Shown: one piece after another, positions 3,918 through 17,926 of the stretch
Layout of the letters: every line of letters begins with the position of its first letter
Numbering within the stretch: the first letter of the stretch is position 1
Source: Anaerovibrio sp.
GTDB taxonomy: Bacteria; Bacillota; Negativicutes; Selenomonadales; Selenomonadaceae
NCBI RefSeq assembly: GCF_024697385.1
Contig: NZ_JAILFV010000014.1
Span: 1-39,753, forward strand
Reading direction: 5' to 3'
Length of the DNA stretch: 39,753 bases
Translations under genes and position numbers: made by a program
Notes under the pieces: generated by a model
The model's input: the letters and a program-made list of their open reading frames with translations, nothing else
Databases searched by the model: none
Told to the model about the DNA's origin: nothing

Positions 3918-3946
3918 TTGACAATTATATAGGAACGATTTAAAAT
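3918..3946 (+). promoter_or_regulatory. Predicted sigma70-type promoter for the riboswitch-mutAB transcript
   Basis: TTGACA (3918-3923), 17-nt spacer, TAAAAT (3941-3946), just upstream of the cobalamin riboswitch. Confidence 0.7.
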
Positions 3947-3968
3947 AATAATAAATAGAATAGAGTAA

Positions 3969-4132
3969 GGACAGGTGTCTGTTGATCAGACTTAATAGAG
4001 AATCCGGTAAAATGCCGGAGCGGTCCCGCCACTGTAAGGGCTGAGCGAGGTACAATCATGTCACTGGAATGCATGTGCAGACTGGGAAGGCGTACTGAGC
4101 TATGACCCCGAGCCAGGAGAACTGCCTGTTTT
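3969..4132 (+). ncRNA. Cobalamin (B12) riboswitch aptamer
   Basis: gaatccggtaaaatgccggagcggtcccgccactgta core, near-consensus B12 box agccaggagaactgcct, and P1 pairing acagg/cctgt. Confidence 0.93.
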
Positions 4133-4267
4133 ATCATCACCGTTAGCGAAAAGAGGATTGTCATCAGTCCTTTGCGATTGGATATGCTTATACCTGCGAG
4201 CGATGGGTAGGGGATGGAACTACGATGGATGGAATAGCTGTATAATATTCATTTATCTGGTATCAGT

Positions 4268-4382: not shown

Positions 4383-6584
4383 ATGAGTGAGGAGAAAAGC
4401 GGCCAGGCTGCCGGAGACTTGGATCTTCAGGCACTTTTGAAAAAGTCGCATCAGGAAACTTCTTTTCCGGATGTTCCTTTGGACGAATTTGAGCCGCCCA
4501 CTTATGAGGAGTGGAAGGAAGCCTGTATTGCTCTTTTGAAGGGGGCACCATTCGATAAGAAAATGTATACCAAAACCTATGAGGGTATTACATTTTCGCC
4601 AATGTATTTCAGGGCTGACACTGATTCTATTTTGCCCAAGAAATCCTTTCCAGGGCTGGATGATTATCTGAGGGGTGCCAAGCCTAATGGCTATATAGAG
4701 GCTCCATGGGGAATAGCCCAGTCCTGTGATGAGACCATGCCCAAGGAGAATAATGAGCTGTTGAAGCATGAGATCGACAGGGGCTCGACCATTTATAACA
4801 TTCGTTTGGACAGGGCTACCTTATCCTGTGTGGATGCCGGTCAGACTGACAAGCCAGGGGATGATGGCTGCAGTATCACCACCTTGCAGGATGTTCATGA
4901 TCTGCTGGATGGGCTTAAGCTGGATACATATCCACTGTATATCTATGCCGGTGAATCGGCTTTGCCTGTCTTCGCGATGGTGATTGCGGCTCTGAAGGCA
5001 AGCGGCAGGGATATTGGAGCTTTAAGGGGCATTATAGCGGCAAATCCTGTTGGGGAGCTGGTTGCCAGGGGGAAAAACAGCCAGTCATTGGACAAGCTGT
5101 ATGATGAGGCCTATGAATGCGGTAAATGGGCCATAAAGAATACGCCACAGCTCAGGACATTGTTTGTAAAAAGCGATGTATTCAGCAATGGTGGCGCAAA
5201 TGACATCCAGGAAATAGCCTACAGCCTGTCAGTGGCCGTTGATTATCTCCGGGCAATGATGGAGCGTGGCATGACGGTGGACGAGGCTGCAGGACAGATA
5301 GCCTTTGAATTTTCCATGGGTGCCAATTTCTTTATGCAGATTGCCAAGCTGAGGGCCGTGCGGCCGATTTGGGCACAGATTGTAGAGGCCTTTGGCGGGA
5401 ATGAGGATTCCCGCAAAATGTACATACATGCCCGCCCATCAAGATTTTTCAAGACCGTATATGATCCGTATGTAAATATGCTGCGCAATACCTCTGAAAT
5501 CTTTTCCGGTGTTGTGGGAGGCTTGGATTCCTTTGAAAATCCTCCTTTTGATGAGGTTATCCGCAAGGGGGATGAATTCTCCCGCAGAATTGCCCGTAAT
5601 GTACAGATCATGCTTCAGGAGGAATTTGGCCTGCTGCAGCCAATAGATCCTGCCGGTGGTTCCTGGGCAGTGGAGACTCTTACCAAGCAGGTTAAGGAAA
5701 AGCTGTGGGCAGAATTCCAGACCGTGGAAGGTAAGGGCGGAATAGTTGCTGCACTGAAGGAGGGATATCCTCAGGAGCAGATAGCAGGTATTCTTGCCGA
5801 CAGATTTAAAAAACTGGAGCTGCGCCGTGATCGTATTGTAGGTTCCAATATGTATCCGAATATGACGGAGGTACGCCTCGATCCACGACCGGAGGATTTT
5901 GGGGAGAACAAAAAACTTCGCTGTGAGGCTGTGTCAGCTTATATTAACGATGTGGATGTTCAGTACAGGGATGAGGCACTGTCCAAAATAAAGGAGACAA
6001 AGGGCTCCATGGATTGCGTGATATCAGCTGCCAAGGCTGGAGCCACTGTATCCGAGCTGAAGCAGGCCCTCACCTGTCCTAAATGTGCTGAAGCCGCCGA
6101 GGAAATCGAAAAAATAGGTGTTCACCGTTGGAGCGAGCGGTATGAGGCTCTCCGTATGGTAACTGAAGCCTATAAGGAAAAACACGATGATAATGTGAGG
6201 ATTTTCCTGGCCAATATGGGTCCTATCCCACAGCATAAGGCCCGTGCAGACTTTACCACCGGTTTCCTCCAGGTAGGAGCCTTCGAGGTAATGGGCAACA
6301 ATGGGTTTAAGACTGTCGAGGAGGCAGCAGCTGCTGCAAAGGAATCAGGGGCAGATGCTGTTGTAATATGCTCCACTGATGCCACCTATCCGGAGATTGT
6401 TCCTGCCCTGGCACCTATGCTTCATGAGGCTTTGCCTCAGGCTACTGTTTTCCTGGCAGGAGAAGCACCGAAGGACCTCAAGGAAACATATGATGCCGCT
6501 GGCATAAACAGCTATATTTCTGTCAGGGCAAATTGCTATGAAATTTTGCAGGCACTGCAGAAAAAGAAAGGGATGATTGAGTGA
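4383..6584 (+). CDS. mutA: Methylmalonyl-CoA mutase small (beta) subunit
   Basis: Starts [13 protein letters not shown] after a ggagg RBS; MCM-fold domain plus degenerate B12 domain lacking DxHxxG; pairs with adjacent mutB. The ORF-track start at 4158 lies in the leader. Confidence 0.92.
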
Positions 6585-8785
6585 TGGCTTCTTTTAAAAA
6601 TCCGGATTTTACCACAATGAATCTTAAAGAAGCTCCAGAGCGAAGCCCTGAAGAATGGCGCAGGCTGTTCAAGGATTCTGCCGGTGCTGCCTTTGATGAT
6701 TTGACCGGTAAGACTATGGAGCATATTCCTATAAAGCCGTTGTATAATTATGATGAATATGAGCATATGAATCACCTGGATTTCGCTTCAGGGATTCCGC
6801 CGTGCCTGAGGGGACCTTATTCTACCATGTATGTCTTCCGCCCTTGGACAGTTCGTCAGTATGCGGGCTTCTCAACGGCTGAGGAATCAAATGCATTTTA
6901 TCGCCGCAACCTGGCTGCCGGGCAAAAAGGTCTGTCCATAGCCTTTGATCTGCCTACCCACCGCGGGTATGATTCTGATAATCCCCGTGTATTGGGTGAT
7001 GTTGGTAAGGCAGGAGTTGCGATAGATTCAATTTTGGATATGCGTATACTCTTTAGTGGCATTCCATTGGATCAGATGTCCGTATCCATGACCATGAATG
7101 GTGCAGTATTGCCTATACTGGCCTTTTATATCCTTTCCGGCGAAGAGCAGGGTGTAGACAAGAGTGTCATGGCAGGTACTATTCAGAATGATATCCTGAA
7201 GGAATTCATGGTGCGTAATACTTACATCTATCCACCTGAGATGTCCATGCGTATCATTGGTGATATTTTTGAATATACTACTAAATACATGCCTAAATTC
7301 AACAGCATTTCCATTTCCGGCTACCATATGCAGGAGGCAGGCGCCACTGCAGATATTGAGTTGGGCTATACGCTGGCTGATGGTCTGGAGTATATCCGGA
7401 CAGGTGTGGCTGCAGGATTACCGGTTGATGCCTTCGCCAAGCGGTTGTCCTTCTTCTGGGCAATTGGCAAGAATTATTTCATGGAGGTTGCCAAGATGCG
7501 TGCAGCCCGTGTTCTCTGGGCCAAGATTGTCAAATCATTTGGTGCTACAAATGACAAATCCATGGCTCTGAGAACCCACAGCCAGACTTCAGGCTGGTCG
7601 CTTACGGCACAGGATCCGTTCAACAATGTTTCCCGTACACTTATGGAAGCTATGGGTGCTGCTCTTGGTCATACCCAGTCCCTGCATACCAATGCACTGG
7701 ATGAGGCCATTGCACTGCCGACTGATTTTTCGGCCCGTATTGCCCGTAATACACAGCTGTATATTCAGGATGAGACCAGTGTATGTAAGATTATTGATCC
7801 TTGGGGTGGTTCCTATTATGTTGAGGCCCTCACCAATGAGATTATCCGCCGTGCCTGGGCACATATCCAGGAGGTTGAGGCTCTGGGCGGCATGGCCAAG
7901 GCCATTAACAGCGGCCTGCCTAAGATGCGTATTGAGGAGGCTGCTGCCCGCCGTCAGGCCCAGATTGATTCCGGTAACGAATCCATTGTAGGATTGAATC
8001 GCTTCAGGCTGGAGAAGGAAGATCCGTTGGAGATTCTGGCCATCGATAACACTGCAGTTCGCCAGGCTCAGATTGAACGGCTGGAAAAGCTCCGTGCCGA
8101 GCGTAACGATGATGATGTCCGCCGTTGTCTGGAGGGTATTACCAAGGCTGCTGAATCCAGGGATAACGGCAATCTTTTGGAGGCTGCCGTTGATGCAGCC
8201 CGTGCCCATGCCTCCCTGGGTGAGATTTCCGATGCCGTTGAAAAGGTATCCGGAAGATTTCAGGCGGTCATTCATACAATTTCTGGGGTATATTCCTCTG
8301 AATTCACCGACAAGAGTGCTCTGGAGAAGGCACGGGAGATGGCTGATGAATTTGAGGAGCTCACCGGACGCAGACCAAGAATTTTTGTGGCCAAGATGGG
8401 ACAGGATGGTCATGACCGTGGCCAGAAGGTTATTGCCTCATCCTTTGCCGATATGGGCTGGGATGTGGATGTAGGGCCTCTGTTCCAGACTCCGGAGGAG
8501 ACCGCCCAGGATGCTGTGGACAATGATGTGCATATGGTCGGCTTCAGTTCACTGGCAGCAGGTCATAATACACTTCTGCCACAGCTGGTACAGGAGCTGG
8601 CAAATCTTGGCCGTGATGATATCATGGTTTGCATTGGTGGCGTAATACCGGTGCAGGATTATGATTTCCTCTATGAAAGTGGTGCAGTGGCAATTTTTGC
8701 ACCTGGAACCAATATTCCGGAGGCAGGGATTAAGCTGCTGACATTGCTGATTGAAAGAGCCAGGGAAGATTTGGAGGAAGAGTGA
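6584..8785 (+). CDS. mutB: Methylmalonyl-CoA mutase large (alpha) subunit
   Basis: [53 protein letters not shown] and C-terminal B12 motif DGHDRG; TGATG overlap with mutA. Confidence 0.96.
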
Positions 8786-8797
8786 TGGTGACGGGTT

Positions 8798-9991
8798 ATG
8801 GCTAAATATTCCACTTCAAAACCGAGCTGGGTTCCTGAAGAGCCCAATGAAAAATTTGCCTGTAGTGTTATGGGCGGTATAGAGGGGATTAAGGACACCA
8901 CCGTGGGAAATATAAATCCTAATATTCTGAACGGAAAGGTCAAACCAAAACGGCGGCTGGTCTTAAGTGAGGACGATTATGTCAATGGGGTGCTAAGGGG
9001 AGACCGCATGACATTGTCCCGGGCTATAACTCTCATTGAAAGTAATAATTCAAAGCATTTTGCCAAGGCACAGCGGGTATTGCAAAGGCTTTTACCACAT
9101 ACAGGAAAAGCACTTCGCATAGGTATTACCGGTGTGCCTGGCGCCGGCAAGAGCACAATCATAGAGGCTTTGGGCAATATGTTGTGTGATGCCGGTCATC
9201 GGGTGGCTGTTTTGTCCGTCGACCCTACCAGCTCTGTTACCAAGGGCTCAATATTGGGCGATAAAACAAGAATGGGGACTCTGTCCCGCCGGCAGGAGGC
9301 CTTTATAAGGCCTTCTCCTGCGGGAGGAACCCTGGGGGGAGTTGCCCGTAAAAGCCGTGAAACAATGCTCATGTGTGAAGCGGCCGGCTATGATATTATT
9401 CTCATTGAGACTGTGGGAGTTGGTCAGTCAGAAACCACCGTCAGGTCCATGGTGGATTTCTTCATGCTGGTGGTACTGACAGGTGCCGGTGACGACCTGC
9501 AGGGAATCAAAAAGGGAATTATGGAGTTGGCAGATGCAATTGTAATCAATAAGGCAGATGGCGATAATCTCCTGAAGGCAAAGGTGGCCAGGGGGGAATA
9601 TGAACGGATGATTGAGTATATACGGCCTGCTACTGAGGGGTGGCCGACTCATGCTTATCTGTGTTCTGCTTATACCAAATTTGGACTGCCTGAGCTTTGG
9701 AAGGTGATTCAGGCTTTCAGGGAAATGACTACCGAAAGTGGCGTTTTTGATAAGAGACGCCGGGGGCAGCTGCTGGAATGGATGCACAGTATGATTGATG
9801 AGCATCTCCACAGCCTGTTCTTTGACGACCCGGTTATTACCGGGCGGATGCCTGAGGTAAAGGCTGCTGTCCTGGAGGGCGTTATTTCACCAACCCAGGC
9901 CGTCAAGGAGTTGGTGAATATGTTTGATGTGGATATGGCAGCAAAGCGCCAGGTGGATATTTTTCATCCGGAAATGGAAGTGAAGGGATAA
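8798..9991 (+). CDS. meaB: MCM-associated GTPase MeaB (ArgK family), copy 1, with N-terminal extension
   Basis: GVPGAGKST Walker A, DPTSSVTKGSILGDKTRM, ETVGVGQSE, NKADGDN; N-terminal tail of about 60 aa absent in copy 2. Confidence 0.93.
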   Translation: MAKYSTSKPSWVPEEPNEKFACSVMGGIEGIKDTTVGNINPNILNGKVKPKRRLVLSEDDYVNGVLRGDRMTLSRAITLIESNNSKHFAKAQRVLQRLLPHTGKALRIGITGVPGAGKSTIIEALGNMLCDAGHRVAVLSVDPTSSVTKGSILGDKTRMGTLSRRQEAFIRPSPAGGTLGGVARKSRETMLMCEAAGYDIILIETVGVGQSETTVRSMVDFFMLVVLTGAGDDLQGIKKGIMELADAIVINKADGDNLLKAKVARGEYERMIEYIRPATEGWPTHAYLCSAYTKFGLPELWKVIQAFREMTTESGVFDKRRRGQLLEWMHSMIDEHLHSLFFDDPVITGRMPEVKAAVLEGVISPTQAVKELVNMFDVDMAAKRQVDIFHPEMEVKG

Positions 9992-9994
9992 TCG

Positions 9995-10561
9995 GTGTAT
10001 ACTAAAAAAATTTATCTTTCAGGTGGTAATTTTCATGAATTACAGGCTGTATACGAAGCACTTCACGGTGTTATAAAGGTCTGTACCGGATATATCAATC
10101 CTGACAGACAGCCTGCTGATTATGAATCAGTGGCTGCCGGGCGCACGAATGCAGTTATGGGCATCTGTCTGGAATATAATCCAAAGAAAATTGATATATC
10201 CATGCTGTTGGATGTTCTGTTTGCCGTGACTGATCCTTACAGTGAAAACCAACAGGGACCACTGAAGGGGCCGATGTATGGCTGTGGTGTATATTATGTA
10301 TCTTCTGAGGACCTTCCTCAGCTGCAGCTGCACATCAACTTCATGGCAAATAGGGGAACTCCGCCGGCTGTGGACTCCTGCGGGCTTATTATCAATGACC
10401 CTGTAAGTGATCAGAGACAGAGGCGTCGCCTGTTTGTAAAGGTAGAACGATTAGAGTCCTTTACAGAGGCCGAGGAAGTTCATCAGAATTTTTTACTGAA
10501 AAATCCTGATACGGCTACATATATTGATATTTGTAAATTCAAGAGATATATAGGGGAATGA
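9995..10561 (+). CDS. MsrA-fold protein lacking the catalytic Cys (putative pseudoenzyme)
   Basis: Aligns by eye along MsrA: GGNFH (for GGCFW)...GVIKVCTGYINP...YESVAAGRTNAV...EYNPKKIDISMLLDVLFAVTDPYSENQQGPLKGPMYGCGVYY. Confidence 0.75.
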   Translation: MYTKKIYLSGGNFHELQAVYEALHGVIKVCTGYINPDRQPADYESVAAGRTNAVMGICLEYNPKKIDISMLLDVLFAVTDPYSENQQGPLKGPMYGCGVYYVSSEDLPQLQLHINFMANRGTPPAVDSCGLIINDPVSDQRQRRRLFVKVERLESFTEAEEVHQNFLLKNPDTATYIDICKFKRYIGE

Positions 10562-10570
10562 TATCGGGAA

Positions 10571-10605
10571 TTAAAGGGTGATTGCCAGAGGCAATCACCC
10601 TTTAA
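10571..10605. terminator. Strong inverted repeat, probable terminator of mutAB-meaB-msrA-like unit
   Basis: Perfect 16-bp arms ttaaagggtgattgcc / ggcaatcaccctttaa with a 3-nt loop. Confidence 0.75.
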
Positions 10606-10634
10606 TAATTGTATGACAATTTTACTGTCTTTCC

Positions 10635-10815: not shown

Positions 10816-12321
10816 ATGATTGATATTATCGATCGGGTACGCAACAAGGAATTACAGTCTAAGATTGTTACTGCTGAAGAAGCTGCAGCAATCATTAAGC
10901 CTGGTATGAATGTTGGTACCTCAGGCTTCACTCCATCCGGTTATCCAAAGGCTGTACCTATGGCTTTGGCAGCTCGTATGGAAAAGGAGCATTTTAAGAT
11001 TAACCTCTGGACCGGCGCTTCTACTGGCGACGAGGAAGATGGTTATCTTGCAAGGGCTGATGGAATTCAGTTCCGTATGCCGTATCAGACCAACAAGGAT
11101 ATGCGTAACGCTATCAACAGCGGTAAGATTGAGTATGCAGACCTGCATTTATCTGAATCCGCACAGTTGGCGCGTTATGGGTACATGGGCGGAAAAATTG
11201 ATGTAGCAATTGTTGAGGCTTGTGCCATCACAGAAGAGGGGAATATTATTCCTACTACTTCCTTGGGCAATGCAGCATCATATGTTCAGACAGCAGATGT
11301 GGTTATTGTCGAGGTGAATACCAGCCAGCCTATAGAGCTGGAAGGCATGCACGATGTGTATGTTCCTCTGGATCCACCAAATCGTCTGCCAATTCCTGTT
11401 GTTAAGCCTAATGACAGAATTGGTACACCATACATTCCTTGTTCTCCTGATAAAATCAAGTACATAGTACCTTGTGATATCACTGACAAGGTTCGTCCAC
11501 TTGGTGAAATCGATGAGAACTCAAGGAAGATGTCACAGCACTTTATTGATTTGCTGCATGCAGAGGTTAAGGCTGGCCGTATGCCAAAGAATCTGCTTCC
11601 ACTGCAGTCAGGTGTAGGTGCTGTTGCTAATGCCGTAATCAGTGGCTTCGTAGATTCTGACCTGAAGGACCTGTCCGTATATACTGAGGTTATTCAGGAT
11701 GGAATGTTCGATCTGATTGATGCCGGCAAGCTGAACTTTGCGTCAGGTACTGCATTGTCTCCATCTCCTGAGGGGTTGAAGCGTTTCTATGCCAATATCA
11801 AGGAATATAGAAAGCACATTATGCTCCGTCCGCAGGAGGTTGCAAACAGCCCTGAGGTTGCCCGCCGTATCGGTGTTATTGCCATGAATACAGCTATTGA
11901 GGCTGATATCTACGGCAATGTCAACTCTACCCATATCATGGGCAGCAAGATGATGAATGGTATTGGTGGTTCCGGTGATTTTGCCCGTAATGCTTACTTG
12001 ACAGTATTCTTTACTGTATCCACTGCCAAGGACGGTAAGATTTCTTCCATCGTTCCTATGGTTTCTCATGTAGACCATACCGAGCATGATGTAGATATCA
12101 TCGTTACTGAGCAGGGTCTGGCTGATCTTCGTGGACTTTCACCACGCCAGCGTGCAAAGGTTATCATTGAAAACTGCGCACATCCGGACTTCAAGCCTAT
12201 GCTGATGGATTACTATGAAAGAGCATTAGCAGAAACCAAGAGTGCCCATACTCCACACATTTTGCATGAAGCACTTTCTTGGCATGAAAGATTTATGAAA
12301 ACAGGCACAATGAAGAAATAA
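10816..12321 (+). CDS. Acetyl-CoA hydrolase/transferase family; likely succinate (propionyl-CoA/acetyl-CoA):CoA transferase
   Basis: [80 protein letters not shown] at 10816 after ggggagg RBS. Confidence 0.88.
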
Positions 12322-12338
12322 CAGGAGGATATTCCATT

Positions 12339-13985
12339 ATGAGCAATGAAAAAATTCAGGCTGGTTTAGACAAATATAATGCCAGTGTAGAAAAAGCTAC
12401 CTCTCGCTTCCCAGAGCGTTCTCACCTGCCAGAGCAGCGTCTGTACACTCCATTGGATATCAAGGATACTGATTATGCTGATGAAATCGGTTTCCCTGGG
12501 ATGTATCCTTATACCCGAGGCGTACAGCCTACCATGTATCGTGGCCGTTTCTGGACCATGCGTATGTATGCTGGTTTCTCCACTGCAGCTGAATCCAACA
12601 AGCGTTACCGTTATCTGATTGAGTCCGGTGCTACTGGTCTTTCCTGTGCATTTGACCTTCCTACCCAGATCGGTTATGACTCTGATGATTCCATTTCAGA
12701 GGGCGAGGTTGGTAAGGTAGGCGTTGCTATTGACTCTCTGGCTGATATGGAAGTTCTTTTCGACCAGATTGATCTCGGCAAGGTTTCCACTTCTATGACT
12801 ATCAACGCTCCTGCATCAGTTCTGCTTGCTATGTATATTGCAGTTGCTGAAAAGCAGGGTGTTCCTGCTGATCAGCTTAAGGGTACTATTCAGAATGATA
12901 TCCTTAAGGAATATGCAGCCCGTGGTACATATATTTTCCCACCGCGTCCGTCAATGCGTCTGATCACCAACATCTTTGAGTATTGCTCCAAGAATGTTCC
13001 GAAATGGAATACCATTTCCATTTCCGGTTATCATATTCGTGAGGCTGGTTCCACTGCTTCCCAGGAAATCGCATTTACCATTGCTGATGGTATTGCATAC
13101 TGCGAGGCAGCAATTAAGGCCGGCCTTCATATCGATGATTTCGCAGGTCGTCTTTCCTTCTTCTGGAATGCTCATAACAATGTGCTTGAGGAAGTTGCAA
13201 AGTTCCGTGCTTCCCGTCGTGTATGGGCCAAGGTTATGAAGGAGCGTTTCCATGCTGAAAAGCCAAAATCCATGATGCTTCGTGTTCATACTCAGACTGC
13301 AGGTTCCATGCTGACTGCTCAGCAGCCTAACAACAACATCGTTCGTGTTGCCCTGCAGACTGCAGCTGCTGTTATGGGTGGTACTCAGTCACTGCATACC
13401 AACTCCCGTGATGAGGCTTTGGCATTGCCTACTGAGGAATCCGTTATGATCGCTCTCCGTACTCAGCAGATTGTTGCTTATGAGTCCGGTCTGGCTGATG
13501 TAATCGATCCATTGGCAGGTTCTTACTATGTTGAGGCTCTTACCAACAAGATCGAGAAGGAAGCATGGGAATACATCAACAAGATTGATGAAATCGGCGG
13601 TGCTGTTGCAGCCATCGAGAAGGGTTATATCCAGAAGGAGATTCAGGATTCTGCATACAAGTGGCAGATGGATGTTGAGTCTGGTGCAAAGACTATCGTT
13701 GGTGTTAACAAGTTCCAGATTGAAGAAGAGCCACCAAAGGGCTTGCTGAAGGTTGATGCTTCTGTAGGTGTTGCACAGTGCAAGCGTTTGGCTGACATGA
13801 AGGCTAAGCGTGACAATGATGCTGTCAAGGCTGCATTGGCTGACCTGAAGACTGCTTGCCAGGATGAGAACGAGAACCTCATGCCACATATCCTGAACGC
13901 TGTTCGCACTTATGCAACTCTCGGTGAGATTTGCGGTGTAATGCGTGAAGTATTCGGTGAGTACGAGGCTCATGTAAATCTGTAA
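12339..13985 (+). CDS. Acyl-CoA (methylmalonyl-CoA) mutase large subunit, split type, no B12 domain
   Basis: 548 aa MCM catalytic domain ([49 protein letters not shown]) ending before any DxHxxG. Confidence 0.93.
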
Positions 13986-14057
13986 TCCGAAATTGTTTCC
14001 AGGGGGGGAATATACAATCCCTCCTGGCTTCACAGATAATTTGGAGGTAATTTAGAA

Positions 14058-14450
14058 ATGGAAAAGCGCATAAGAGTATTAGTTGCAAAACCAGGCCTGG
14101 ATGGCCATGACCGTGGTGCAAAGGTTGTAGCAAGAGCATTGCGTGATGCTGGCTTTGAGGTTATTTATACCGGTCTTCGTCAGACTCCTGAGCAGATTGC
14201 TGAAGCAGCTTTGCAGGAAGACGTTAATGTTGTGGCAATGTCCATCCTTTCCGGTGCACATCCACATCTTTTCCCTAAAGTTGTAAATCTGGTTCGTGAA
14301 AAGGGCATGAATGATGTTCTTATCATCGGCGGTGGTGTTATTCCTGAGACTGATATTCCGGCCCTTAAAGAGGCAGGAATCGCCGAGGTATTCACCCCAG
14401 GTACTCCAACCAGCGATATTGTTGAATTTATTAAGGCTAATGTCAAATAG
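14058..14450 (+). CDS. Cobalamin-binding small subunit of split methylmalonyl-CoA mutase
   Basis: 130 aa; [63 protein letters not shown]. Confidence 0.95.
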
Positions 14451-14530
14451 TAGATTGGTGACAGTGGAGATGCCGGCTGCAGGTTTTTCTGCAGCCACAG
14501 CTCCTTGTTGCTGGTAATGGTGGTGCATTG

Positions 14531-15469
14531 ATGGACATTGTAGAAGAACTTTTAAAGGGTAACCGGTTGGCTTTGTCACGGGCTATTACAGCTATCGAAA
14601 ACGAGTATGACGAGGCTTTGGACATCATGAAAAAGCTGTATCCTCATACTGGTCATGCTTTTGTTCTTGGGATTACCGGTCCTCCGGGAGCTGGAAAAAG
14701 CACCTTGACTGACAAGCTGGCAAGGGCATATCGTGCACAGGGAAAAACTGTTGGTATCATTGCAATTGATCCCACCAGCCCATTTACCGGTGGTGCCATT
14801 CTTGGAGACCGTATCAGAATGAATGGCTTGACCATGGATGAAGGCGTATTCATTCGCAGTATGGGAACCCGTGGCAGCTTGGGAGGGCTTTCTCATAAGA
14901 CAGCTGATGCAGTAAAGGCCATGGATGCTTTTGGCAAGGATATTATTTTCGTTGAAACTGTTGGTGTTGGTCAGTCTGAGGTTGATATCGTAAAGGCTGC
15001 CGATACTACCATGGTAGTCCTGATTCCCGGAATGGGTGATGACATCCAGGCTATCAAGGCAGGTATCCTTGAGATTGGTGATGTTTTCACTATCAATAAG
15101 GCTGATCATGATGGCGCAGACAAGCTGGTTCGTGAAATGAACATGATGCTTGATCTTGACGGCATGATGACGGATTGGCGGCCACCAATCCAGAAGGTCA
15201 TTGCCAGCCAGAATGAAGGTATTACTGAAACTATCGAAAACATAGAAAAGCATTTCAAATACATCAGTGAAAATGGTATACTGACAAAGCGGCGTACGGA
15301 GCGTTCAAAGAATGAGATGATGGATGTTCTCCAGAGCAGTATAGGTTCACATATTACCAAAAAGCTGATTGATTCAGGCTTAATGGATAAATATGTTGAA
15401 CAGATAAAGGCCAGGGAAACTGATCCTTATACCGTCGTAGGTGGTATAATGAAGGATATGTTGAAATAA
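14531..15469 (+). CDS. meaB: MCM-associated GTPase MeaB (ArgK family), copy 2
   Basis: GPPGAGKSTL, DPTSPFTGGAILGDRIRMN, ETVGVGQSEVDIVK, NKADHDGAD. Confidence 0.94.
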   Translation: MDIVEELLKGNRLALSRAITAIENEYDEALDIMKKLYPHTGHAFVLGITGPPGAGKSTLTDKLARAYRAQGKTVGIIAIDPTSPFTGGAILGDRIRMNGLTMDEGVFIRSMGTRGSLGGLSHKTADAVKAMDAFGKDIIFVETVGVGQSEVDIVKAADTTMVVLIPGMGDDIQAIKAGILEIGDVFTINKADHDGADKLVREMNMMLDLDGMMTDWRPPIQKVIASQNEGITETIENIEKHFKYISENGILTKRRTERSKNEMMDVLQSSIGSHITKKLIDSGLMDKYVEQIKARETDPYTVVGGIMKDMLK

Positions 15470-15501
15470 GTGTAAATAAGGTATTTAGGGGGAAAAAAGA
15501 A

Positions 15502-15924
15502 ATGGCATTTAAGATCTTAGGTGTTGATCATATTGGTATTGCATGCAAGGATTTACAGGCAGGTAAGGATCTTTGGAATACTATTGGTTTGGCCTGTACC
15601 GGAGAAGAGACTGTTGCAGAGCAGAAGGTTACTACTACCTTCCATCCAACTCCAAATGGCTCTGAGATTGAGCTTCTTGTGGGTACTGCTGATGACAGCC
15701 CAATTGCCAAGTTCATTGAGAAGAACAATGGCCGTGGTGGTATCCAGCATATCGCCCTCAGGGTTGATGATCTTCCAGCAGCTATTGCAGAGCTTCAGGA
15801 GAAGGGTATTGTCATGATTGATAAAGCACCTCGTAAGGGTGCCGGCGGTGCAGATATTGCATTCGTTCATCCAAAATCTGCAGGCGGTGTTTTGTTGGAG
15901 CTTTGCCAGCATGAAGACCGTTAA
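15502..15924 (+). CDS. mce: Methylmalonyl-CoA epimerase
   Basis: 140 aa glyoxalase-fold: VDHIGIACKDLQAG, GGIQHIALRVDDLPAAIAELQEKG, FVHPKSAGGVLLELCQ. Confidence 0.95.
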   Translation: MAFKILGVDHIGIACKDLQAGKDLWNTIGLACTGEETVAEQKVTTTFHPTPNGSEIELLVGTADDSPIAKFIEKNNGRGGIQHIALRVDDLPAAIAELQEKGIVMIDKAPRKGAGGADIAFVHPKSAGGVLLELCQHEDR

Positions 15925-15988
15925 TCTGTCGGTTCTTATGCAGACAGTACATAATCCAGCCCATATCGGGCTGTTTAGGAGGTAAAAA

Positions 15989-17524
15989 ATGGCTACAGTT
16001 CAGGAAAAAATTGAGCTTATGAAGAAAAAGAAAGCTCATATTGAGCTTGGTGGCGGTGAAGCCCGTATTGCCAAGCAGCACGACAAGGGGAAGATGACTG
16101 CCCGTGAGCGTCTCAATCTTCTTTTTGATGAAGATTCCTTTGTAGAGCTTGATGCTTTCGTTAAGCATCGTTGCACCAATTTTGGTCAGGAGAAGAAGGA
16201 TTTGCCAGCTGAGGGTGTTGTAACAGGTTATGGTACTGTAGATGGCCGCCTGGTATATGCCTTTGCCCAGGACTTTACTGTTGAGGGCGGTTCCCTTGGT
16301 GAAATGCACGCAAAGAAGATTTGGAAGGTACAGGATTTGGCCATGAAGATGGGTGCACCTGTTATCGGTATCAATGATTCAGGTGGTGCGCGTATTCAGG
16401 AAGCTGTTGATGCCCTTTCCGGCTATGCTGGTATTTTCTATCGTAATACTGCTGCTTCCGGTGTTGTTCCTCAGATTTCTGTTATCATGGGACCATGTGC
16501 AGGCGGTGCAGTTTATTCACCAGCCATCACAGATTTCATCTACATGGTTGACAAGTCTTCCCAGATGTTTATTACCGGTCCTGCAGTAATTAAGTCTGTA
16601 ACCTATGAGGAGGTTACTGCTGAGGCTCTTGGCGGTGCAATGACCCACAATACCAAGTCCGGTGTTGCTCATTTTGTTGCATCTGATGAGAAGAATTGTA
16701 TCGAGCAGATTCGTTATCTCTTGAGCTTCCTGCCAAGCAACAATATGGAAACCACTCCATTGGTAGAGCCAACTGATGACCCGGATCGTATGGATGAGTC
16801 TTTGAATGAGGTTATTCCTGATGACCCTAACCAGCCATATGACATGAAGGATGTAATTACCGGATTGGTTGATGACGGTGAGTTCTATGAGGTACATGAG
16901 CACTTTGCTACCAACATCATTACCTGCTTTGCCCGTTTTGATGGCCGTAGCGTAGGTATCATTGCAAATCAGCCTAAGGTTATGGGCGGTTGCCTTGATA
17001 TTGATGCTTCTGATAAGGCTGCCCGTTTTATCCGTATGTGTGATGCATTCAACATTCCATTGGTTAATCTGGTTGATGTACCAGGTTTCCTTCCAGGTGT
17101 TGGTCAGGAACATGGTGGTATTATCCGTCATGGTGCAAAGATGCTTTATGCATACAGTGAAGCAACTGTACCTAAGGTAACTGTTATCACCCGTAAGGCT
17201 TATGGCGGTTCTTATATTGCTATGTGCTGCCGCGAACTGGGTGCAGATCAGGTTATGGCTTGGCCTTCTGCTGAAATCGCAGTTATGGGTCCTGCCGGTG
17301 CAGCCAACATTATCTTTAAGCGTGATGAACCAGAGGCTAAGGCACAGCATACTCAGGACTATGTTGATGAGTTTGCTACTCCTTACAAGGCTGCAGAGCG
17401 TGGTTATGCTGATATGGTTATTGAACCAATGGAAACCCGCCCTCGTATCATCTCTGCATTGAATGCATTTGAAAGCAAGCGTGAAGCTATGCCAGCTAAG
17501 AAGCATGGCAACATTCCACTTTAA
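15989..17524 (+). CDS. mmdA: Methylmalonyl-CoA decarboxylase alpha / acyl-CoA carboxyltransferase subunit
   Basis: 511 aa; KMTARERLNLLFDEDSFVELD, GINDSGGARIQEAVDALSGY, MGPCAGGAVYSPA, ARKHGNIPL-type C-terminus; close to Veillonella MmdA as recalled. Confidence 0.92.
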   Translation: MATVQEKIELMKKKKAHIELGGGEARIAKQHDKGKMTARERLNLLFDEDSFVELDAFVKHRCTNFGQEKKDLPAEGVVTGYGTVDGRLVYAFAQDFTVEGGSLGEMHAKKIWKVQDLAMKMGAPVIGINDSGGARIQEAVDALSGYAGIFYRNTAASGVVPQISVIMGPCAGGAVYSPAITDFIYMVDKSSQMFITGPAVIKSVTYEEVTAEALGGAMTHNTKSGVAHFVASDEKNCIEQIRYLLSFLPSNNMETTPLVEPTDDPDRMDESLNEVIPDDPNQPYDMKDVITGLVDDGEFYEVHEHFATNIITCFARFDGRSVGIIANQPKVMGGCLDIDASDKAARFIRMCDAFNIPLVNLVDVPGFLPGVGQEHGGIIRHGAKMLYAYSEATVPKVTVITRKAYGGSYIAMCCRELGADQVMAWPSAEIAVMGPAGAANIIFKRDEPEAKAQHTQDYVDEFATPYKAAERGYADMVIEPMETRPRIISALNAFESKREAMPAKKHGNIPL

Positions 17525-17542
17525 TTTTGGAGGTATTGAGAA

Positions 17543-17926
17543 ATGAAAAAGTTTAACATAAAAGTAAATGGTACTGCATATGAAGTAGAAGTAGAGGAAG
17601 TAAAGGGAGCAGCTTCAGCTCCTAAGGCAGCTCCTAAGGCAGCTCCAGCTCCAGCAGCGGCTCCTAAGGCAGCTCCAGCTCCTAAGAAGGCTGCAGTAGC
17701 AGCAGGTGCAGGTGAGACTGCAGTTAATGCTCCAATGCCAGGTAAGGTATTGAAGATTGTTGCAGGTGAAGGTACTGCTGTAAAGGCTGGCGATACTGTT
17801 CTTGTTCTCGAGGCTATGAAGATGCAGAATGAAATCCCAGCTCCATGCGATGGAACTGTTAAGGCTGTCAATGTATCTGAGGGCTCAACTGTATCTGCAG
17901 GTGAGGCTATGGCTATTATCGGCTGA
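17543..17926 (+). CDS. mmdC: Biotin carboxyl carrier subunit (biotin/lipoyl domain) with Ala-Pro-Lys linker
   Basis: LEAMKMQNEI biotinylation motif; PKAAPKAAPAPAAAPKAAPAPKKAA linker. Confidence 0.9.
   Translation: MKKFNIKVNGTAYEVEVEEVKGAASAPKAAPKAAPAPAAAPKAAPAPKKAAVAAGAGETAVNAPMPGKVLKIVAGEGTAVKAGDTVLVLEAMKMQNEIPAPCDGTVKAVNVSEGSTVSAGEAMAIIG

Follow-up and report, generated by a model that had tools for sequence, protein, structure and literature searches.

MsrX, a putative non-catalytic MsrA descendant encoded with methylmalonyl-CoA mutase in Anaerovibrio sp. and its relatives

The last gene of a methylmalonyl-CoA mutase operon in Anaerovibrio sp. encodes a protein, here named MsrX, that probably assists the mutase as a non-catalytic helper not yet described. 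The gene for this MsrA-fold pseudoenzyme, msrX, is found at positions 9995 to 10561 on the + strand of the window, i.e. the whole stretch of 39,753 nucleotides analysed. It starts with GTG, follows the meaB stop codon at 9991 by 3 nt and specifies 188 amino acids; coordinates, product length and gap had been read correctly from the sequence in a preliminary description. That description knew of no role for the protein, and a literature search of mostly non-subscription papers likewise found none that links MsrA with the term pseudoenzyme, or MsrA with MeaB and the mutase.

Homology, predicted fold and lost catalytic residues

The MsrA homology of the window protein is far above chance level. 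The Pfam PMSR model (PF01625) matches it with 97.8 bits (E 9e-28; cut-off 23.7), among PDB chains its best solved relative, at E 3e-22, is the MsrA domain of Neisseria PilB, and the NCBIfam msrA equivalog gives 90 bits, which is under its cut-off of 108. With a score so well over the PMSR cut-off, MsrX may be called a methionine sulfoxide reductase by automated annotation. No other PF01625 gene was found in the window's own genome, which is 87% complete.

An AlphaFold2 model of the window protein, built on a 57-member alignment, has a mean pLDDT of 87.7 and a pTM of 0.82. When compared with the PDB by Foldseek, nearly all of its confident matches are MsrA structures, and 3bqf and 3bqg are matched at TM 0.80-0.81 with probability 1.00. 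A second model, of a distant member from group f2 that has 25-40% identity to the other rows, likewise matches the MsrA fold (pLDDT 87.8, pTM 0.83). The homology along the product that was first proposed from motifs thus holds, as the PMSR score, the PDB chains and the predicted structure all agree. Poorly modelled are residues 121-140, an inserted loop with a conserved NDP (block pLDDT 53-56); this loop may become ordered upon partner binding.

The codon at positions 10028 to 10030 (+), which aligns with that of the nucleophilic Cys of MsrA, specifies Asn12. As described earlier, GCFW is GNFH in the window protein, MYGC stands for QYRS and the GHAE segment, then called reduced, is gone, with Met at the position of its Glu. 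Two further residues have gone: Leu replaces the Asp of QGND (D129 in E. coli), and Thr replaces the Cys of GYC. MYGC is specific to the window; MYR-x is present in most relatives, and the Tyr is retained in 40 of 56. The nucleophile Cys is absent from all 56 diverse mutase-type copies, including the window copy with its Asn, and the position is occupied by D (27 copies), S (19), N (6), P (2), Y (1) or A (1). The GCFW Trp is also missing in 56/56, its position varying (H, Y, R), as are Asp129 of QGND and the recycling Cys of GYC, and Glu94 of GHAE is lost in 53 copies and present in three. All 28 active reference MsrA copies carry the Cys, the Trp, Glu94, Asp129 and the GYC Cys.

Could MsrA activity persist by way of another Cys, or of selenocysteine? 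The window protein does have five Cys residues, but the alignment of the 56 family members shows no conserved Cys column and a loss of residues of the Glu94 and Asp129 type, and where MsrA encodes its nucleophile, the window and its relatives have sense codons for D, S, N, P, Y or A. Both the selenocysteine and the alternative Cys were rejected on this alignment, and residual activity is extremely improbable. To judge from its sequence, MsrX cannot be a methionine sulfoxide reductase by the known mechanism. The loss of Cys, Glu, Asp, Trp and recycling Cys bears out the suggestion of a catalytically dead MsrA homologue, and the check on a substitute catalytic Cys found no column conserved family-wide.

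The MsrX family and its new conservation

MsrX has in common with MsrA (PF01625; PilB domain 3bqf) the fold, the length, glycines, a DP/NP, the HQ-x-Y segment and, in most members, the Tyr of QYRS. It differs in lacking the nucleophilic Cys, its Glu/Asp partners, the Trp and the recycling Cys, and in having a conserved insertion of ~20 residues together with new conserved motifs. These are GG[DSN]F[HY]ELQ, NPKKxD, EDxP..NF..R and the inserted loop with NDP. D67 and E105 are invariant in all rows of the alignment, K64, K65 and Q17 are present in at least 95%, and D106, F116, R120 and N134-D135 are also newly conserved.

In the tree, a branch with support 100/99 separates the 56 Cys-less copies, as a single clade, from active MsrA. 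Close relatives of the window protein are found in Anaerovibrio, Selenomonas ruminantium and Pectinatus; the scan of 85,000 species matched exact peptides of this protein, which reveals close relatives only. In the class, 253 of 381 genomes have a match at E 1e-5 or better, the weaker of which include true MsrA. The closest active relatives are MsrA proteins of group f34 (L069 and L070, the same proteins as L136 and L145), which resemble MsrX in the EDEP helix and the insertion but retain GCFW, the Glu and GYC and are not adjacent to mutAB-meaB. The shared insertion suggests that MsrX originated from such an MsrA. A plausible route is one where an active MsrA repaired the mutase, and the chemistry was then lost and the binding retained.

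MsrX diverges much faster than its neighbours, with ~65-70% identity within the genus compared with 93-98% for MutB and MeaB. Could it be a remnant in decay, carried along by the operon? Some genomes of genus g10 have broken or truncated copies and several lineages have lost msrX, which would fit such a remnant, but the reading frames are open in all Cys-less copies of the tree, which span at least three families, and the median dN/dS of msrX is 0.12 (pairs with dS 0.15-1.2), a value that indicates purifying selection. Decay of the family is highly improbable; a pseudogene was rejected for most of it on the basis of dN/dS and open frames, and accepted for some g10 copies. Four of the latter (L185, L187, L190 and L192) have internal stops or truncation and an intact MutA, and msrX seems to be in decay in those genomes.

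The new conservation also invites functional alternatives. MsrX could be an enzyme that performs Cys-independent chemistry on an intermediate of the mutase pathway, as the strong conservation of D67, E105, K64, K65 and Q17 within a metabolic operon might suggest. Neither a metal site nor a catalytic triad is evident, however, and the pathway is complete without MsrX, which some relatives lack; a new enzyme is very unlikely. Alternatively, a remodelled pocket could bind acyl-CoA, a corrinoid or free methionine (sulfoxide) and tune the mutase. The old active-site loop has been remodelled non-randomly to GG[DSN]F[HY]ELQ, with E in 48/56 copies at the Gly site of GCFWG and Q two residues later in 55/56, and a cobalamin riboswitch controls the operon, both of which favour a ligand sensor. 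On the other hand, the residue varies both where the Cys was lost (D, S, N, P, Y, A) and at the Trp site (H, Y, R), a poor fit to a fixed small-ligand site, and a sensor appears quite unlikely.

The operon and its linkage across genomes

All features of the operon are on the + strand. A sigma-70-like promoter (3918 to 3946; 11/12 in a consensus scan) precedes the cobalamin riboswitch of the leader (3956 to 4143; RF00174, 108 bits). It is followed by mutA (4383 to 6584), the gene of the inactive, small subunit of methylmalonyl-CoA mutase, which starts with ATG at 4383 after a GGGAGG ribosome site; by mutB (6581 to 8785), which encodes the catalytic subunit with its B12-binding domain; and by meaB (8798 to 9991), which encodes the G-protein chaperone of the mutase. 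A hairpin 3' of msrX (10570 to 10606; 17 pairs, z -7.3) is a probable terminator that the consensus terminator scan missed because of its weak T-run. MutA matches the mutase N-terminal family and no B12-binding domain at the threshold used, and MutB has both. MutB, MeaB and a downstream epimerase are above their NCBIfam cut-offs, and MutA matches the small-subunit model below cut-off.

RF00174 matches are present in 10/10 related loci searched, mostly near mutA or msrX (e.g. L152:9112-9281). In an Anaerovibrio relative without msrX, an FMN riboswitch comes immediately after meaB (L102:7818-7979). A second mutase module in the window (10816-17926) consists of a succinate CoA-transferase, a 548-aa mutase domain, a separate 130-aa B12-binding protein, a second MeaB and a methylmalonyl-CoA epimerase, followed by a carboxytransferase and a biotin carrier, the last two assigned by eye. 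The organism seems to carry two adjacent mutase systems.

The msrX gene is directly downstream of meaB in 71 loci, among which a few genomes are represented twice; the median gap is 6 nt, and in 58 of the loci it is within 50 nt. Linkage to mutAB-meaB is found in at least three family-level groups and persists from ~70% down to ~31-35% MsrX identity. In genus g44 of group f2, msrX is upstream of mutA on the same strand in all seven genomes with matches, and the order riboswitch-msrX-mutA-mutB-meaB was read fully in one; some of these g44/f2 copies are too divergent for PF01625. Thus msrX is located behind meaB or, in another family, between riboswitch and mutA, and the association outlasts a change in gene order. 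Shortened and highly divergent MsrX sequences upstream of mutA were observed in genomes G036-G039 (L194, L195, L196, L199), and PF01625 misses them where tested.

The window's family comprises 189 genomes, of which 149 have MutA and MsrX, 20 neither, 13 MutA only and seven MsrX only, where a few weak MsrX matches may be true MsrA. The odds ratio for co-occurrence is 33 with phylogeny ignored, and it stems in part from single deletions, since one deletion can take out the whole operon. All seven MsrX-only genomes are incomplete assemblies. MsrX is absent beside mutAB-meaB in part of Anaerovibrio, in f34 and in genus g47, and within the window's genus, two genomes that are nearly complete encode mutAB-meaB and no MsrX. 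MsrX is therefore not essential to the mutase.

Might MsrX have another target, and be merely co-regulated with a B12 operon? In genus g10, mutAB, meaB and msrX are mostly apart, yet msrX is retained in most genomes, as an independent role would predict; the neighbours of the unlinked g10 genes, viewed by eye, have no common theme (transporter, GTPase, P-type ATPase, HypF-like). Against this, linkage at either end of the operon recurs in distant families, and genomes without mutA are mostly without msrX, so that an independent role has a low probability. The preliminary description had envisaged an MsrA-fold protein recruited to the MutAB/MeaB machinery. This stands as well supported: the MsrA fold was recovered for the window protein and the distant f2 member, no conserved alternative Cys was found, and the gene is tied to mutAB-meaB in at least three family-level groups and in two gene orders. 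A single role among those it listed (chaperone, assembly, repair or sensor) is not picked out.

MutA Glu117 and a proposed role at the mutase

Does a residue of the mutase vary with MsrX? Every lineage with MsrX that was examined has Glu at residue 117 of MutA (codon at 4731 to 4733, +; 119 in the query numbering from 4377); Leu occupies this site in the MsrX-less Anaerovibrio subclade and in 12/12 g47 genomes. Of 378 lineage pairs, three have the same unique replacement fixed at a MutA site that is uniform elsewhere; two of these pairs are sister or near-sister lineages, and the E-to-L pair is the only non-sister parallel. A MutA tree with column 117 left out separates the two E-to-L events: each falls on a branch of its own, with MsrX-bearing lineages as its sisters. 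As there are only two independent events, a sign test is unable to reach significance. Glu117 is kept in f34, which has the active MsrA relative and no MsrX, and in g10 species with decayed or missing MsrX. It is also present in an MsrX-negative, incomplete Anaerovibrio assembly (G113), whose MutA groups with the MsrX-bearing clade, and whose msrX may therefore sit in an assembly gap. No shared change was found at MutB or MeaB sites across the MsrX-less lineages. Glu117 aligns with the Phe of the QYAGFS loop of the catalytic subunit, which would place it where the inactive subunit has its vestigial barrel. The E-to-L parallel hints at a contact between MsrX and MutA.

We consider it moderately probable that MsrX is a non-catalytic MsrA descendant which serves, as an accessory protein, specifically the MutA-MutB heterodimer of the mutase and MeaB. 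Points against this reading are the lineages with mutAB-meaB and no MsrX, the broken g10 copies beside an intact MutA, the Glu117 kept in f34 and the fast divergence of MsrX relative to its neighbours. It would bind the mutase complex, most likely the inactive MutA near the vestigial substrate barrel, by means of its new conserved surfaces (GG[DSN]F[HY]ELQ, NPKKxD, EDxP..NF..R and the NDP loop). Once bound, it may stabilize the heterodimer or assist MeaB in cofactor loading or exchange. MeaB opens the catalytic subunit to let the cofactor in, and no contact is predicted between its G domain and the inactive subunit (PMC9974510; PMC10481361), which leaves the latter with a free surface where MsrX could bind. 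The MeaB/MMAA chaperone, which has a GTPase fold unrelated to MsrX, is encoded in the same operon and is the proposed partner in mutase maintenance. A bolder version makes MsrX an obligate third partner in a MutA-MutB-MeaB complex, docked on MutA and gating MeaB-driven B12 loading or repair. This is rather unlikely; if true, no such layer of mutase maintenance is known in any organism.

A precedent for MsrA function beyond sulfoxide reduction is an archaeal MsrA with ubiquitin-like modification activity (PMC5587910). That protein differs from MsrX in being described as catalytic, and it has no link to B12 or a mutase. Going by the literature searched, MsrX would be the first MsrA-fold pseudoenzyme family. 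The MsrX motifs and MutA Glu117 offer testable residues on either side of the proposed contact, and in major rumen and gut propionate producers MsrX may be a new part of the system that maintains the B12-dependent mutase.
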